Assembly (NCBI GenBank): GCA_029432795.1
Contig: JARNMJ010000013.1
Coordinates: 1-64,000 of the forward strand
Direction of reading: 5' to 3'
DNA from: Pontiellaceae bacterium B12219
GTDB taxonomy: Bacteria; Verrucomicrobiota; Kiritimatiellia; Kiritimatiellales; Pontiellaceae
DNA: 64,000 bases
A program made the translations under genes and the position numbers. The notes below the pieces were generated by a model, which saw only the letters and a program-made list of their open reading frames with translations, was not told where the DNA came from and did no database searches. This document shows positions 10,698 through 16,216 of this stretch, piece after piece. Within the stretch, counting starts at the first letter, position 1. Every line of letters begins with the position of its first letter.

Positions 10698-12035
10698 ATG
10701 AACATGAATCGCAACCACTTTATGCAGACCGCGGCCATCGCCGGCACCATGCTGGCGACCCTTAAGGCCCGCGCGATTGAAAATGCCGTACTTTCGGCCA
10801 AAAAGAATCCGGACCAGCTGAACATCGCCGTCATCGGCGTAGGGGCGCAGGGGCGTATTTTAATGGAGTCCTGCCTGCGCATTCCCGGCATACGGTTCAT
10901 CGCAGTCTGCGATATCTGGAACTATTCCCAACGCTACGCCGAACGCTACCTCAAAAAATACGGCCATGAGGTAAACGTCTATGAGGACTACCAGGAGATG
11001 CTGGCCAACGAAACCGATAAACTGGACGCAGTCATTGTGGCCTCCCCCGACTGGGTGCATGCCGAACATACCAATGCCTGCCTGAATGCCGGCCTCCACG
11101 TCTATTCTGAAAAAGAAATGGCGAACACACTCGAAAAGGCGGCCAGCATGGTGCGTACCGCCAAATCCACCGGAAAGCTCTTACAGATCGGTCACCAGCG
11201 CCGCTCGAATCCGCGCTATATTCACGCCGTTGAAACCCTGATTCACGAAACGAAACTGATTGGCCGGGTGACCACCGCCACAGCGCAATGGAACCGCGCC
11301 AAAGCAGATGACATCGGCTGGCCGGCGAAATATGAAATGGATGCCGCCACCCTGGATAAATACGGCTACAATTCCATGACCGAATTCCGCAACTGGCGGT
11401 GGTACAAAAAATACGGCGGCGGCCCGATCGTCGACCTCGGCTCACATCAGATTGATCTCTTTGAATGGGTCTGGGGAGTCAACCCCAGCTCTGTTATTGC
11501 CTCCGGCGGAACAGATTTCTACAAACACCGCGAATGGTACGACAACGTGATGGCCATTTATGAATACGAAACCCCCGAAGGCACGGCACGCGCATTCTAC
11601 GAAACGCAGACCACCACCGGACACGGCGGTTTTTCCGAAGCCTTCCGGGGATCGGAAGGAACCATTGAAATTGCCGAAGTTCCGCAACAGGGCAATTCCG
11701 CTCTGCGCGAAGCTCATGCCCCGGAATGGGATAACTATGCTGTGCAAGGGCTGATCAAAAAAGTTGCCGCCCCCATCAAACAAGCCTCCACCAAAAATGT
11801 GGCGGTCGACGTACGCGTGACCGCCGCCGCCGGTGCCTGGCCGCTGCCGGTCGAGCTGACCAAGCCGGCACACCAACCGCACCTGGAAAATTTCTTCAAT
11901 GCCATTCGTTACGGCACCCCGCTCAACTGCCCAGCCGAAACCGGCTATGAAACCGCCGTCGCCGTGCTGGCCGTAAACCGCGCTGTTGCCACAAACCAGA
12001 AAATCACCTTCAAACCTTCGGACTTCCACGTATGA
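10698..12035 (+). CDS. Exported Gfo/Idh/MocA-family oxidoreductase
   Basis: The 445-residue product has an N-terminal export-type segment (NRNHFMQTAAIAGTMLATLKARA) with an Asn-Arg where Tat substrates usually have Arg-Arg, then a Rossmann motif NIAVIGVGAQGR (about residues 39-50). The family motif is SEKEM in place of EKP: Lys is kept, Pro is lost. The C-terminal domain has GGGPIVDLGSHQID. Exported members such as glucose-fructose oxidoreductase carry tightly bound NADP, which would fit periplasmic action. Its stop overlaps the cytochrome start (ATGA at 12032-12035), implying coupled translation and possibly electron transfer. Substrate unknown. Confidence 0.85.
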   Translation: MNMNRNHFMQTAAIAGTMLATLKARAIENAVLSAKKNPDQLNIAVIGVGAQGRILMESCLRIPGIRFIAVCDIWNYSQRYAERYLKKYGHEVNVYEDYQEMLANETDKLDAVIVASPDWVHAEHTNACLNAGLHVYSEKEMANTLEKAASMVRTAKSTGKLLQIGHQRRSNPRYIHAVETLIHETKLIGRVTTATAQWNRAKADDIGWPAKYEMDAATLDKYGYNSMTEFRNWRWYKKYGGGPIVDLGSHQIDLFEWVWGVNPSSVIASGGTDFYKHREWYDNVMAIYEYETPEGTARAFYETQTTTGHGGFSEAFRGSEGTIEIAEVPQQGNSALREAHAPEWDNYAVQGLIKKVAAPIKQASTKNVAVDVRVTAAAGAWPLPVELTKPAHQPHLENFFNAIRYGTPLNCPAETGYETAVAVLAVNRAVATNQKITFKPSDFHV

Positions 12036-14650
12036 AAAAGATGAATCTTTTTTCGGATTTCCGATTTAAGATTGCCGATTTCAGATTGAATAGCCCATTT
12101 GTTTCCCGGCAAGCCAATCGTCAATCAGCAATCGGTAATCGGAAATTGTTGGGCATTGCATTAGGCATGGGCATTTCGCTCGCGGCAAGCGCTTCCCACT
12201 TCGACGGCTCCCGAACATGGCCTGTTCACCGAATCCCGTTAAGCGATGAGGAAGGAAACGCAATTGTATGCACTGTTCCCGACACCATGCCGTTTTCGGC
12301 GCGGATGACCTGCGGCGCGTGCCACGACTACGACAAAATTCAGGGTGGAACCCACTTCAGCGGCGCCATGGGCGGCCGTCCGGGAGAGCCCTGGATTGTG
12401 GTTGATGAAACAACCGGTGTTCAGGTTCCGGCCGAACGGATGAATCTTTCCGCATGGGAATTCACCAAGCGTTTCGGCAGTCATCTGCCCGGCGGCGGCA
12501 TCAGCGACCCGGTCGATAAACTGACCGATCCCGATTCCCGCTGGGATATTTCCGGCGGGCTCGAAATGAACTGTCTGGCCTGCCATAACCAATCTCCCCG
12601 GCAGGACCTGACCGAATGGGCCAAACAGATCGGCCGCGAAAACTTCCGCTGGGCGGCCACGGCCGCTTCGGGCATGGGCGAAGTTGGCGGAATGGCCTCG
12701 CGCCTGCCCGATTGGTGGAATATTCACTCCGGCGGAAATCCCGACGACCACACCTATCGCGTTCCGCCCACCGTCAACTACGACACTTCGCTGTTCGATT
12801 CCAAGCATCGGATGTGGTTCGACATTGGTGAGCCCCAGGACAAAAACTGTCTGCAATGCCATTCTTCGCATCCGGTTACCGCCCAGCGGATGGATGTGCC
12901 CGGCGATGTGCATGCCGCCGCCGGACTCTCCTGTGTGGACTGCCATAAAAACGGGGAAGACCACGTGATGCTGCGCGGCACAACCGAAACGATGAGCTGT
13001 GCGGCCTGTCATACAGAAGAAGGAATGATTGCCGGACAGCTCGGTGCACCGGTTGCCCATCATAAAGGTATTCCGCCGGTTCACTTTGAAGAACTCACCT
13101 GCACCGCCTGCCACTCCGGGCTTGCACCTTCGCAAGAGCCGCAGCTGGTCCGCACCTCGCGCGCCAACACCCTCGGCATCTATGGCCGGGCGCAGTGGTA
13201 CACCGAATCGCCGTTCATTGTTGAACCGGTTTATGTCCGCAACGACGAAGGCAAGATTGAGCCGCGCCGTATGATGTGGCCGGCCTTCTGGGCCGATGCA
13301 GACGGCAATCCGATTCCGGAAGAAACCATTGCGGAAGCAGCAGTCGGCATTCTGGATACACAACAGCAGATTGGAGCAATTCTTAATCAGCTTTCCGGCG
13401 TTGAAAGTGCGCTCGGAATCCCGCTCTTTGTTGCTGCTGGAAATACCTATGCGCTCAATATGGATGGCGGGCTCGACCTTGTGGGAGAAACCGAACTGGA
13501 TTTGACTTGGGTTTGGCAAACCGAATCCAATCTGGTTTCCACCATTCCGGAATTCGATGTGAATGCCGAAACCGTGGACTACGATGCGGAAGGTGCCATT
13601 CTCGATGTGTTCACAGCCCTGAAACCACTTGAAACGATTCTTGTTACAAAGGGTAAAATGTTCACCGTTGGGGAAGACGGATACCTGCACGGTACCAATT
13701 CTACCCTCGTAGATGGCTGGTACACAAAAGACGGACAACCGCTGGTTTCTGAATTTGCCGAAAACGCTGTGCTCGATACGGTGGGATCTACAAAAAGCTT
13801 CAACGAAGAACAGGTTGCTCTCATGCTTCAGAAACTGGGCAATGGAGCCAGCTACATTTCCAATGGTCGGAAATTCGAACTCGACGGCGATGCGCTGGTG
13901 GATTCGGATGATGAAGCGGCCGAACCGGTTTCCTGGGCCATCGGTCACGATGTGCGCGGTGCGGCGCAGTCGCTCGGCGCAAAATCCTGTCAGGAATGCC
14001 ACGCCGCCGATTCCGCCTTCCTCTTTGGAACGGTGACCGCCACCGGTCCGTTGCTTACAGATCGGGCCAAAACCGTTCCGATGCACGAATTTCAGGAAGT
14101 CAGCAGTACCTTCAATAAGCTGTTCGGGAATACCCTTAATGTACGCGAAGGCTTCAAAAAAATGCTCGGCTTCATTGCCGCGCTGTTGATTCTGCTGGGA
14201 TTAGCCGTTGGACTTCCACTGCTTTATAAGCTGGTGAGCAAAGCTGAGGAAAAACAGGTTTCACTGACTCCGGTCCGGATTGTAATGATGACGGCGATGC
14301 TGGTGCTGATCGTTACCGGCTTCCTGTTCGGCTGGCCGATTAAACCTTCATTGGGCGGTTTCCCGTTGCTCAGTCATGTCGGCTTCGGTGCACTGTATGC
14401 GATCGCCTTGCTGGTTTATGCGGTGTTGAAAGTAAAATCCGGCGGCCCGTGGTTCTGGGTACTGCTCCTCTGCGGCATTGTGCTGATTCTGAGTGTGCTG
14501 ATTGCGATGTTTCCAATCCTTGGAACTCACGGTCAGCATCTCGCCATCGTCGTTCACCGCATCGCCGCCGTACTCAGCATCGTCGCCGCCGTCATGGGTT
14601 CGGCGACTGGCAGGAAGAAATCCAACCGGAGCAATCAGCAAAATAATTGA
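12032..14650 (+). CDS. Seven-haem membrane cytochrome c
   Basis: The 872-residue product contains seven CxxCH haem c sites in order: CGACH, CLACH, CLQCH, CVDCH, CAACH, CTACH and, after a long gap, CQECH. The first six lie in about residues 90-365. Residues about 420-640 are haem-free and may be a beta-rich insert. The C-terminal part (about 705-860) holds four or five membrane helices, the last ending in an arginine/asparagine-rich tail. The first 35 residues (FRFKIADFRLN to QSAIGNRK) are encoded by a repeat-like sequence; the true signal peptide appears to begin near LLGIALGMGISLAASA, so the start may be internal. It probably carries electrons between periplasm and membrane pool. Confidence 0.85.
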   Translation: MKKMNLFSDFRFKIADFRLNSPFVSRQANRQSAIGNRKLLGIALGMGISLAASASHFDGSRTWPVHRIPLSDEEGNAIVCTVPDTMPFSARMTCGACHDYDKIQGGTHFSGAMGGRPGEPWIVVDETTGVQVPAERMNLSAWEFTKRFGSHLPGGGISDPVDKLTDPDSRWDISGGLEMNCLACHNQSPRQDLTEWAKQIGRENFRWAATAASGMGEVGGMASRLPDWWNIHSGGNPDDHTYRVPPTVNYDTSLFDSKHRMWFDIGEPQDKNCLQCHSSHPVTAQRMDVPGDVHAAAGLSCVDCHKNGEDHVMLRGTTETMSCAACHTEEGMIAGQLGAPVAHHKGIPPVHFEELTCTACHSGLAPSQEPQLVRTSRANTLGIYGRAQWYTESPFIVEPVYVRNDEGKIEPRRMMWPAFWADADGNPIPEETIAEAAVGILDTQQQIGAILNQLSGVESALGIPLFVAAGNTYALNMDGGLDLVGETELDLTWVWQTESNLVSTIPEFDVNAETVDYDAEGAILDVFTALKPLETILVTKGKMFTVGEDGYLHGTNSTLVDGWYTKDGQPLVSEFAENAVLDTVGSTKSFNEEQVALMLQKLGNGASYISNGRKFELDGDALVDSDDEAAEPVSWAIGHDVRGAAQSLGAKSCQECHAADSAFLFGTVTATGPLLTDRAKTVPMHEFQEVSSTFNKLFGNTLNVREGFKKMLGFIAALLILLGLAVGLPLLYKLVSKAEEKQVSLTPVRIVMMTAMLVLIVTGFLFGWPIKPSLGGFPLLSHVGFGALYAIALLVYAVLKVKSGGPWFWVLLLCGIVLILSVLIAMFPILGTHGQHLAIVVHRIAAVLSIVAAVMGSATGRKKSNRSNQQNN
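12046..12150. repeat. Imperfect inverted repeat at the 5' end of the cytochrome gene
   Basis: The arm around 12056-12085 (GATTTCCGATTTAAGATTGC...) is the near reverse complement of the arm around 12124-12149 (...AATCGGTAATCGGAAATT). The type ('AATCGGxAATCGGAAATC') is a low-complexity dispersed repeat seen between genes in PVC bacteria. Here it is read in frame at the start of the cytochrome. Confidence 0.65.
14511..14525. repeat. Palindrome copy in the cytochrome membrane domain
   Basis: TTCCAATCCTTGGAA, read as FPILGT in a transmembrane part of the cytochrome. Confidence 0.85.
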
Positions 14651-14660
14651 ATGCAAAATG
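14641..14660. repeat. Left inverted repeat of the GxxExxY cassette
   Basis: AAATAATTGAATGCAAAATG. It matches the reverse complement of 15391-15410 at 19 of 20 positions. Its first ten bases contain the last two sense codons and stop of the cytochrome gene. Confidence 0.8.
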
Positions 14661-14672
14661 AGGTTCTGAGCT

Positions 14673-15386
14673 TTGCCGATTGAATTGCAGATGCCCGTTC
14701 ACCGGATTTCCCAAAAAGAATTCCATGAAATCGATCAGGTTGTCACAGGGCTTTCCTTTGACATCCACAATGAATTCGGTCGATTGTGTGATGGGAGCAT
14801 CTATCAGGCAGAGCTGCTGGCCCGATGTAAGAAGAAGGGTATCGAAGGGCATTCCGAATTTGAAATCAAAGTGTCCGACAACACATTCTGCAAAAGTTAC
14901 TTCATCGATCTGCTTCTAACGAATCTCGCCCATGAAGCCTTGATTAATTTTCGGCCCACGTCCGTTGTTCACGAATTCGCATCCACCATGCTAACTGAGG
15001 AAACGAGGTTCAAATATTCGATTGAGGAGAATGCGTGGCAGTCGCTGGACAGCGACTCCACTCAATTCAGAATATTGATGCATAACTTACTGGGAGAATG
15101 GGGAGCTTTTCCCGACAGCCAACTCTACACGGAGGCGATCACCCACTTCTTCGGAGGAGAAGAACAATCCATACCGGCGATTCCTATTTCTGAATCAGGC
15201 CGCATTCTTGGCTATCAGAACGTTCGTTTACTGAATCCGGAAACTTCATTTACTGTTTCTGCTACCACAAAAAATATCGACTACTACGGAAAACATATTA
15301 AGCGGTTCCTTAACCACACCGATCTTAGAGCAATTCAATGGGTGAACTTTAATCACGGAATAATTGAGTTCCGAACCGTGACCTGA
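14673..15386 (+). CDS. GxxExxY-like (PD-(D/E)XK superfamily) protein in an inverted-repeat frame
   Basis: The 237-residue product resembles GxxExxY proteins: FDIHNEFGRLCDGSIYQAELLARCKKKGI corresponds to the segment that names the family, with Asp in place of the Glu. FCKSYFIDLLL may be the nuclease-core strand, but the usual (D/E)xK is not clear, so catalysis is doubtful. The C-terminal half is an extension I do not recognise. The start is a TTG at 14673 behind AGGTTCTGAG; an ATG at 14691 is the alternative. The gene sits alone between 20-bp inverted repeats, separating the cytochrome from apbE, which suggests insertion as a unit. Confidence 0.65.
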   Translation: MPIELQMPVHRISQKEFHEIDQVVTGLSFDIHNEFGRLCDGSIYQAELLARCKKKGIEGHSEFEIKVSDNTFCKSYFIDLLLTNLAHEALINFRPTSVVHEFASTMLTEETRFKYSIEENAWQSLDSDSTQFRILMHNLLGEWGAFPDSQLYTEAITHFFGGEEQSIPAIPISESGRILGYQNVRLLNPETSFTVSATTKNIDYYGKHIKRFLNHTDLRAIQWVNFNHGIIEFRTVT

Positions 15387-15390
15387 CCAA

Positions 15391-15410
15391 CATTTTGCAT
15401 TAAATTATTT
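15391..15410. repeat. Right inverted repeat of the GxxExxY cassette
   Basis: CATTTTGCATTAAATTATTT, partner of 14641-14660 (19/20). It ends six bases before the apbE start codon. Confidence 0.8.
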
Positions 15411-15415
15411 GGCGA

Positions 15416-16216
15416 ATGAATTCCGAACCGCACAGTTTTAAATACGAGGCGATGACCACTGAGTTTGAGGTGATCATTGCCGGGCAGGAACAGGAATATG
15501 CCCGGCAGGCATCGGGGGCTGTATTTCGTGAAATCGACCGCATTAATGATCTGCTCAATAAATACGATGCACGCAGCGATATCGGGCAGGTGAATCTGCT
15601 GAAGCCCGGCGAATCGGTGCGCGTAGCGATTGAAACACTCGAATGTCTGGAACGCGCCGCCTGGGCCTATCGGGTTTCGGGTGGATTGTTTGATCCAACG
15701 CTTGGAACCGGTTTCCAATGGTTGGAAATCGATCGGCCGAATTTTTCCGTAGGCTGGAAAAAGGGCGGCAAAGGCGAAGTGAACCTCGGCGGTATCGGAA
15801 AAGGCTATGCGATTGATCAGGCCACGGAAATCCTGAAGGACTGGGATGTGGAAGAGGCGGTCATTAATGGCGGAACGAGCACGGTGCTGGCGCTGGGAAA
15901 AAAATGGACGCTGGGCGTTGGCGGTCCGTGGGGCGAAAAGGTTGGACTGACCGAAATTACGTTGGAAAATCAGGCCCTCAGCGGTTCCGGAACCGAAGTG
16001 AAGGGTGACCATATCATCAACCCGAAAACAGGAAAACCGGCTCGGCGTCATTTGGCGGCCTGGGCGGTGCATCCCTCGGCGGCGGCATCGGACGCTCTTT
16101 CGACGGCGTTTATGATGATGACCCCCGAACAAATTGAAAAGCTGTGCCGCAGCGAAAGCGGTACGGTTGCATTTATTGTGAATCAGGAAGAAGCATTGAT
16201 TGAAATCGGTGTCTGA
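15416..16216 (+). CDS. apbE: FAD:protein FMN transferase (ApbE family)
   Basis: The 266-residue product attaches FMN to Thr/Ser of target flavoproteins. Visible motifs are FREIDRINDLLNKYDARSDIGQVN near the start, GGLFDPTLG, LGGIGKGYAID (flavin-binding, about residues 122-132), INGGTSTVLALG and SDALSTAF (metal-binding Asp and Thr/Ala region, about 222-229). It lacks the lipoprotein signal of exported ApbE and is shorter than the roughly 330-residue norm, so it may act in the cytoplasm. No clear RBS precedes it. Palindromes at 15693-15707 and 15713-15727 encode DPTLGT and FQWLEI. The target flavoprotein is not obvious nearby. Confidence 0.88.
   Translation: MNSEPHSFKYEAMTTEFEVIIAGQEQEYARQASGAVFREIDRINDLLNKYDARSDIGQVNLLKPGESVRVAIETLECLERAAWAYRVSGGLFDPTLGTGFQWLEIDRPNFSVGWKKGGKGEVNLGGIGKGYAIDQATEILKDWDVEEAVINGGTSTVLALGKKWTLGVGGPWGEKVGLTEITLENQALSGSGTEVKGDHIINPKTGKPARRHLAAWAVHPSAAASDALSTAFMMMTPEQIEKLCRSESGTVAFIVNQEEALIEIGV
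15693..15727. repeat. Two palindrome copies five bases apart in apbE
   Basis: ATCCAACGCTTGGAA (15693-15707, one change) and TTCCAATGGTTGGAA (15713-15727, exact). They are read in two different frames of the same gene. Confidence 0.85.

Follow-up and report, generated by a model that had tools for sequence, protein, structure and literature searches.

The window analysed here is the whole 64,000-nucleotide stretch of contig JARNMJ010000013.1 from Pontiellaceae bacterium B12219, and positions 14638-15413 within it hold a GxxExxY-like gene, framed by two inverted arms, which is a member of a family of bacterial mobile elements that has apparently not been described before. The unit is probably a resident copy of a family working like a REPtron, with a PD-(D/E)XK protein taking the place of the HUH transposase. 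The grounds for this come from comparison of sequences between genomes: the gene-plus-arm architecture, the arm-derived palindromes dispersed elsewhere, the match between palindromes and resident gene for types A and B, the empty sites in relatives, the conflict between element and host trees, and the loss of the E-x-K residues from the window copy. The locus is laid out as follows.

12032-14650, + strand: upstream host gene, resembling that of a multihaem cytochrome; its final codons and stop extend into the left arm
14638-14660, + strand: left arm; R1 GCAAAATAATT (14638-14648), spacer GAAT, R2 GCAAAATG (14653-14660)
14673-15386, + strand: two-domain GxxExxY-like gene; TTG start, 237 aa, 28 aa shorter than its homologues
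14908-14919, + strand: point of an 84-bp in-frame deletion in the window gene; surviving sequence ATCTGCTTCT
15391-15413, - strand: right arm, an inverted copy; R2' CATTTTGC (15391-15398), spacer ATTA, R1' AATTATTTGGC (15403-15413)
15416-16216, + strand: downstream host gene apbE; about 0-16 nt from the cytochrome gene at the empty sites of four relatives (G021, G025, G022 and G004)

An earlier sequence-only reading of this DNA had described 20-bp inverted repeats at 14641-14660 and 15391-15410, matching at 19 of 20 positions. That match holds, and the true arms are longer, at 23 nt each with 21 of the 23 positions paired (91% complementary). Each arm consists of two tandem copies of one motif of about 11 bp, GCAAAATNATT, in an R1-spacer-R2 layout that is also found in relatives, and the arm score of 17 exceeds that of all 540 dinucleotide-shuffled flank pairs (maximum 12). 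The only open reading frame (ORF) between the arms is the 237-codon one at 14673-15386, as had been proposed. The left arm contains the cytochrome stop codon, TGA at 14648-14650, and the apbE ATG (15416) comes just 2 bases past the right arm once this is extended to 15413. The idea of a cassette lodged between two operon genes, neither of them broken, is supported. It had been asked whether the repeats might act merely as a hairpin terminator pair; no terminator-like site was found at either arm, nor did the locus match any known structured RNA in Rfam.

A family of arm-framed genes

The cassette had been taken for a lone one, which it is not: the window unit is one of a phylum-wide family. 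Nearly all of the homologues that were recovered first, within the taxonomic family, have tandem motifs on both sides as an inverted pair, the exceptions being L091, where framing is clear on one side only, and L090, which is truncated and has the left arm alone readable. The framing motif differs between clades of the GxxExxY gene, each with its own downstream neighbor (named from its first residues): GCAAAATNATT for the element before apbE, ACAGAATNATT before exbD/tolR, GGCAGAATAATT before an ABC-transporter gene, ACAAAATAATG or ACAGGACNATT before coaX, GACAGGATNATT before a cobyric-acid-synthase-like gene (cob) and GACAGAAAWAT before a cytidine-deaminase-like gene (cda).

More two-domain homologues, in other orders and classes, came from a profile search across 388 genomes in the GTDB phylum. 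At 36 of 45 two-domain loci the arm score is above the maximum of 540 dinucleotide shuffles, and scores greater than 14 are reached by 32 of the 45 target genes versus 1 of 249 non-target ORFs of 200 aa or longer at these loci; exact inverted arms are exemplified by TTTTTGACAGAATCATTGGAAGACAGAATCATTTTT (36/36) and TGAGGTAGAAAAATAGAGGGGTAGAAA (27/27). Shuffles and neighboring ORFs served as the controls here, a cross-pair control being set aside as inflated by related motifs between clades. The two-domain protein was found in none of the viral contigs or phage records, and plasmid records hold only single-domain GxxExxY proteins.

Dispersed palindromes and their match to the resident gene

Searching the genome and its relatives for the 20-mer, as had been suggested, gave 11 matches with up to three mismatches in the 4.75-Mb window genome and 0 for the reversed control, and the arms recur in relatives. 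Elsewhere in this genome and in relatives, the arms without the gene form palindromes of about 77 bp; units of 76-77 bp lacking the gene occur in G003, G018, G021 and G000. In G003, a complete-looking 8.7-Mb relative, there are about 17 palindrome units, almost all of 76-77 bp, which have in common with the gene-bearing ends the arms, the inner bases TGAGG..C at one end and CCAACA at the other, while their central 13 or so bases are variable. BLAST similarity between palindrome copies is essentially limited to the element and the flanks are unrelated: one sequence lies in many positions that have nothing else in common. With a generic pattern for the palindrome, the 29 genomes of the taxonomic family give as many as 68 matches each, and its reversed form finds 0 in all 29. 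The suggestion of a self-seeding unit thus stands as regards its ends, which are seeded elsewhere, but not as regards the gene-bearing form, which is not multi-copy; it is mainly the short gene-less palindrome that spreads within a genome.

Two tandem arrangements were seen among these repeats. In G018 (L139, contig C141) type A palindromes lie in a tandem array with a period of 151 bp, and in G003 (L198, C1:1465700-1468300) three tandem repeats of about 500 bp, each with a conserved-centre CAGAATAATT palindrome, adjoin a gene that reads like an integron-type tyrosine recombinase. The conserved-centre CAGAATAATT copies of G003 were set aside as part of a separately repeated tract.

The palindromes fold strongly as single-stranded DNA (z about -5). 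Within genomes, the spacer bases of the two arms of GGCAGAAT palindromes match more than expected (P 0.048, 0.006 and 0.004) and, for the free base in R2, matches between arms fall short of expectation (P=0.0025), in a sample of 34 units in which shared descent among copies is not fully controlled. Together the matching of spacers and the strong folds lean towards recognition of a folded strand, as for repetitive extragenic palindromes (REPs). These same two features, along with the way the arms hug the ends of the gene, would also fit host hairpins or operators which the protein binds as a regulator and which are spread by other means. This regulatory explanation is improbable, however, as neither arm carries a terminator, one unit of about 77 bp is copied at unrelated loci with unrelated flanks, relatives have both empty and occupied junctions, and the nuclease active site is kept in nearly all homologues.

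For two subtypes, the palindromes are concentrated in the genomes that have the matching gene. Type A arms number 29, 17, 11 and 3 in G003, G018, G000 and G027, the four carriers of the type A gene, and at most 7 elsewhere (Mann-Whitney p=5e-5); type B arms (spacer NNGAG) number 22 in G028 and 16 in G020, the sole carriers of the type B gene, and at most 4 elsewhere (p=0.002). The third, the GGCAGAAT or ABC-site type, is looser, with 53, 34, 27 and 5 in carriers (p=0.004). Overall, at least two palindrome matches are found in 12 of 13 gene-bearing versus 5 of 16 gene-free genomes (Fisher p=0.002). Since the genomes are related to one another, all of these p-values are indicative only.

Genes for Y1 (HUH) transposases are common in these bacteria, occurring in 25 of the 29 genomes, and the repeats could in principle be REPs of such an enzyme, with the GxxExxY gene a passenger. 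Framing by the motif is nevertheless found at 0 of 30 Y1_Tnp loci, G004, G012 and G023 have Y1 genes and no palindromes, and the motif varies with the clade of the GxxExxY gene. Ownership by a Y1 or RAYT enzyme was rejected on present data and is highly improbable.

Empty sites, residence and movement

Empty sites, for which the sequence-only reading had proposed a search, are present among relatives at two junctions, so the gene is not a constant feature of the orthologous loci. The cytochrome and apbE genes of G021 are 84-86% identical to those of the window and are separated by 14 nt from stop to ATG, stop included, with nothing between; the same junction is also empty in G025, G022 and G004. 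The coaX junction is bare, mostly with stop and start overlapping, in G012, G004, G014, G022, G023 and G013, holds the element in G003 and G001, and has the right arm alone in G026. Upstream of apbE in G026 (L112) a lone GCAAAATGATTTTGC lies at the junction, possibly the footprint of a lost element. Several relatives have other small palindromic units at the coaX junction (L276, L277, L282, L284 and L287), for example of the ACCACGGAG...CTCTGTGGT types, which makes this junction look like a landing spot for several repeat families.

In the element tree there is one junction per clade, the apbE, exbD, ABC, coaX and cob groups needing one change each and cda two; the gene therefore resides at its site for the long term. 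It has also moved. At the apbE site the element tree places G000 with G003, G018 and G027, and G020 with G028, whereas the tree of the host genes puts G000, G021 and G020 together. The host alignment rejects monophyly of the type A carriers (approximately unbiased (AU) test, p=8e-5) and the element alignment rejects the host-like grouping of G000 with G020 (AU p=6e-65), a conflict strong enough to indicate that the element has moved between lineages into that same junction.

One possibility is homing: a relative's empty operon junction would be cut by the nuclease, and repair would copy arm, gene and arm into it, the palindromes being a by-product or binding decoys. PD-(D/E)XK folds are known among homing endonucleases, both group I intron and free-standing, I-Ssp6803I being an example, and like these the present gene is a nuclease gene at a conserved site, present or absent among relatives and spreading horizontally; each clade keeps one junction, and a single junction can hold different element subtypes against the host phylogeny. 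The element differs from homing endonucleases in being without an intron or intein and in having inverted tandem arms and dispersed palindromes. Homing alone leaves the many arm-only palindromes at unrelated places unexplained, and between sites the short junction sequences show no visible conservation; homing is the less likely course, though not a negligible one.

The terminal inverted repeats, the short derivatives resembling internal deletions and the empty sites would equally suit a classical insertion sequence (IS) moving by cut-and-paste, accompanied by miniature inverted-repeat transposable elements (MITEs). Such a pair would need a transposase, however, and no known one is present, the chemistry being that of PD-(D/E)XK rather than DDE enzymes; nor does one gene-bearing copy per clade per genome, long resident at one junction with no target duplication seen, look like an IS, and we regard this as improbable too.

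Several observations weigh against the REPtron-like reading preferred here. The gene-bearing form occurs once per clade per genome, and no transposition event has been observed. Target-site duplications, which had been proposed as a check, were not seen by eye at the flanks and junctions read, where only diverged empty sites were available for comparison. Homologous recombination in the flanking genes, rather than machinery of the element itself, could have brought about the horizontal movement. Palindromes and genes also fail to coincide in places: G021 has type A palindromes, yet its apbE site is empty and it has no type A gene, and the GGCAGAAT motif is abundant in G018, G013, G026 and G025, in which no matching gene was found, some of these being incomplete assemblies; the counts in four genomes without a matching gene are 29, 29, 16 and 10. 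Resident palindromes could outlive a lost gene; for the GGCAGAAT palindromes of G013 and G025, which have no two-domain gene, either the gene was lost, or incomplete assemblies caused it to be missed, or some other enzyme is at work.

The protein

The GxxExxY-like identity proposed from the sequence is upheld. PDDEXK_3 (PF13366) matches the window copy above its cut-off (24.7 vs 22 bits) and is matched in all 21 family members; TIGR04256 (GxxExxY) falls below its cut-off in the window copy (19.6 vs 35 bits), whereas intact homologues exceed it with 66-82 bits. The homologues, of about 265 aa, have a PD-(D/E)XK domain followed by a degenerate second copy. They share with GxxExxY proteins (TIGR04256 / PF13366 PDDEXK_3) the N-terminal domain with its conserved G..E..Y, D, E-x-K and Q residues, and depart from the description of that family in their length and second degenerate domain, and in the framing by repeats, which was not found in it. 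In the 21-sequence alignment A1, numbered by the intact homologue that heads it, G36, E41, Y44, D79, E89, K91 and Q103 are invariant.

The intact homologue L182 gives an AlphaFold2 model with a predicted local distance difference test score (pLDDT) of 93.5. Its N-terminal half resembles PD-(D/E)XK nucleases such as Cas4 SSO0001, AdnAB and MGME1, a likeness at fold level only, given top E-values of about 0.01; it also matches archaeal-virus nucleases. The C-terminal half aligns to the N-terminal half (hhalign E=3e-5 over 103 columns, probability 72%) and in the full model helices and strands follow one another in the same succession in both, which makes it probable that the C-terminal half is a degenerate PD-(D/E)XK-like domain, the second in the protein. 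(The model of the second domain alone is poor, with a pLDDT of 46, and was not used.) A sequence search found no relatives of solved structure, and no DDE, Y1 or S transposase domain was found in the framed gene. An anti-phage defense system was also considered and rejected, there being no match in PADLOC-DB.

The window copy lacks 28 residues, among them E89, K91 and Q103, in the stretches ...YELK... (the E-x-K) and HRKQ, which the homologues in A1 keep. In the homologue of G027 the missing stretch lies between near-repeats, which the ATCTGCTTCT at the deletion point matches; the 84-bp deletion itself is documented in one assembly. Judged from these lost residues, the window copy is probably catalytically dead and no longer cuts. 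Its divergence by codon position is like that of intact copies, which points either to a recent loss or to continuing constraint on the protein; the reading frame remains open, and the conserved protein it encodes may still bind the arms.

Proposed mechanism and relation to known systems

We infer that the protein is what moves the palindromes, cutting or nicking at the arms, with the hairpin as its substrate and acting in trans. Under this scheme it would recognize arms of its own subtype and bind and nick or cut them, alone or as a dimer; the folded hairpin would be the substrate, and host repair or replication would then copy arm-only units. The commoner outcome would be the dispersal of short non-autonomous derivatives, consisting of little more than the two arms (about 77 bp). 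More rarely, new gene-bearing insertions would arise at operon stop/start junctions, the arm giving the upstream gene its stop, and these would be tolerated there because the arm carries that stop in frame.

The closest parallel lies in the REPIN-RAYT systems, in which a single-copy, long-resident enzyme gene is framed by its own repeats, short hairpin-forming palindromes are dispersed, and enzyme and repeat match by subtype (PMC8049555, PMC8266576, PMC3116915). Here too a gene is framed by a repeat that is also dispersed as short palindromes of two inverted motif units. The present enzyme is PD-(D/E)XK and not an HUH/Y1 tyrosine transposase, however; the repeats are without a GTAG foot, the arms are a tandem pair of an 11-bp motif placed at operon stop/start junctions, and the subtype has been transferred between lineages at one site.

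Of published ideas, the one that comes closest concerns the YhgA/Rpn-type PD-(D/E)XK putative transposases (PF12784, TIGR01784) and the hupL MITE of Thiomargarita nelsonii: a PD-(D/E)XK protein is proposed there as the parent of one MITE family, in what the paper calls possibly the first such case (PMC4853749). The Thiomargarita case differs in concerning another PD-(D/E)XK family (PD-(D/E)XK_2) and a single genome, and motif matching, empty sites and phylogeny are not reported in the passages of PMC4853749 that deal with it. No description of elements like the present one was found in the open-access literature on GxxExxY / PDDEXK_3, subscription journals lying outside the search, and in the full texts of 5.39 million open-access papers the name GxxExxY occurs in two, neither of which, judged by title and abstract, deals with its function.

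Single-domain genes show some similar features. Three of the five single-domain PDDEXK_3 genes elsewhere in the window genome (L009-L013) are framed, by eye, by other inverted repeats, with motifs such as ACCGCGGAATACATTGAACACACGGAA and GCCACGAAGAGGCAC, and on a Sphingomonas parapaucimobilis plasmid (L301, NZ_CP155749.1, 1471-1899) a single-domain GxxExxY gene framed by the inverted repeat TTCACGCGAAG lies between fabD and fabG, the operon-junction habit in another phylum. Taking the framed genes of the window genome and the fabD-fabG gene as hints, one can tentatively suggest, as a possibility to which we give less than even weight, that GxxExxY/PDDEXK_3 proteins generally, including those with a single domain, serve as the enzymes of a class of selfish units spread across bacteria: a PD-(D/E)XK nuclease gene boxed in by inverted tandem motifs and lying between operon genes, seeding motif-matched palindromes independently of DDE, HUH, tyrosine or serine recombinases.

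GxxExxY proteins occur widely among bacteria, and what they do has not been settled; a concrete, testable role is offered here, that of recognizing, and perhaps dispersing, their own flanking repeats. If this is true, a PD-(D/E)XK route would be added to the few enzymatic ones by which small palindromes come to populate bacterial genomes, it would account for many of the palindromic repeats of PVC bacteria, and there would be a type of element able to live at operon junctions through the stop codon that it carries with it.

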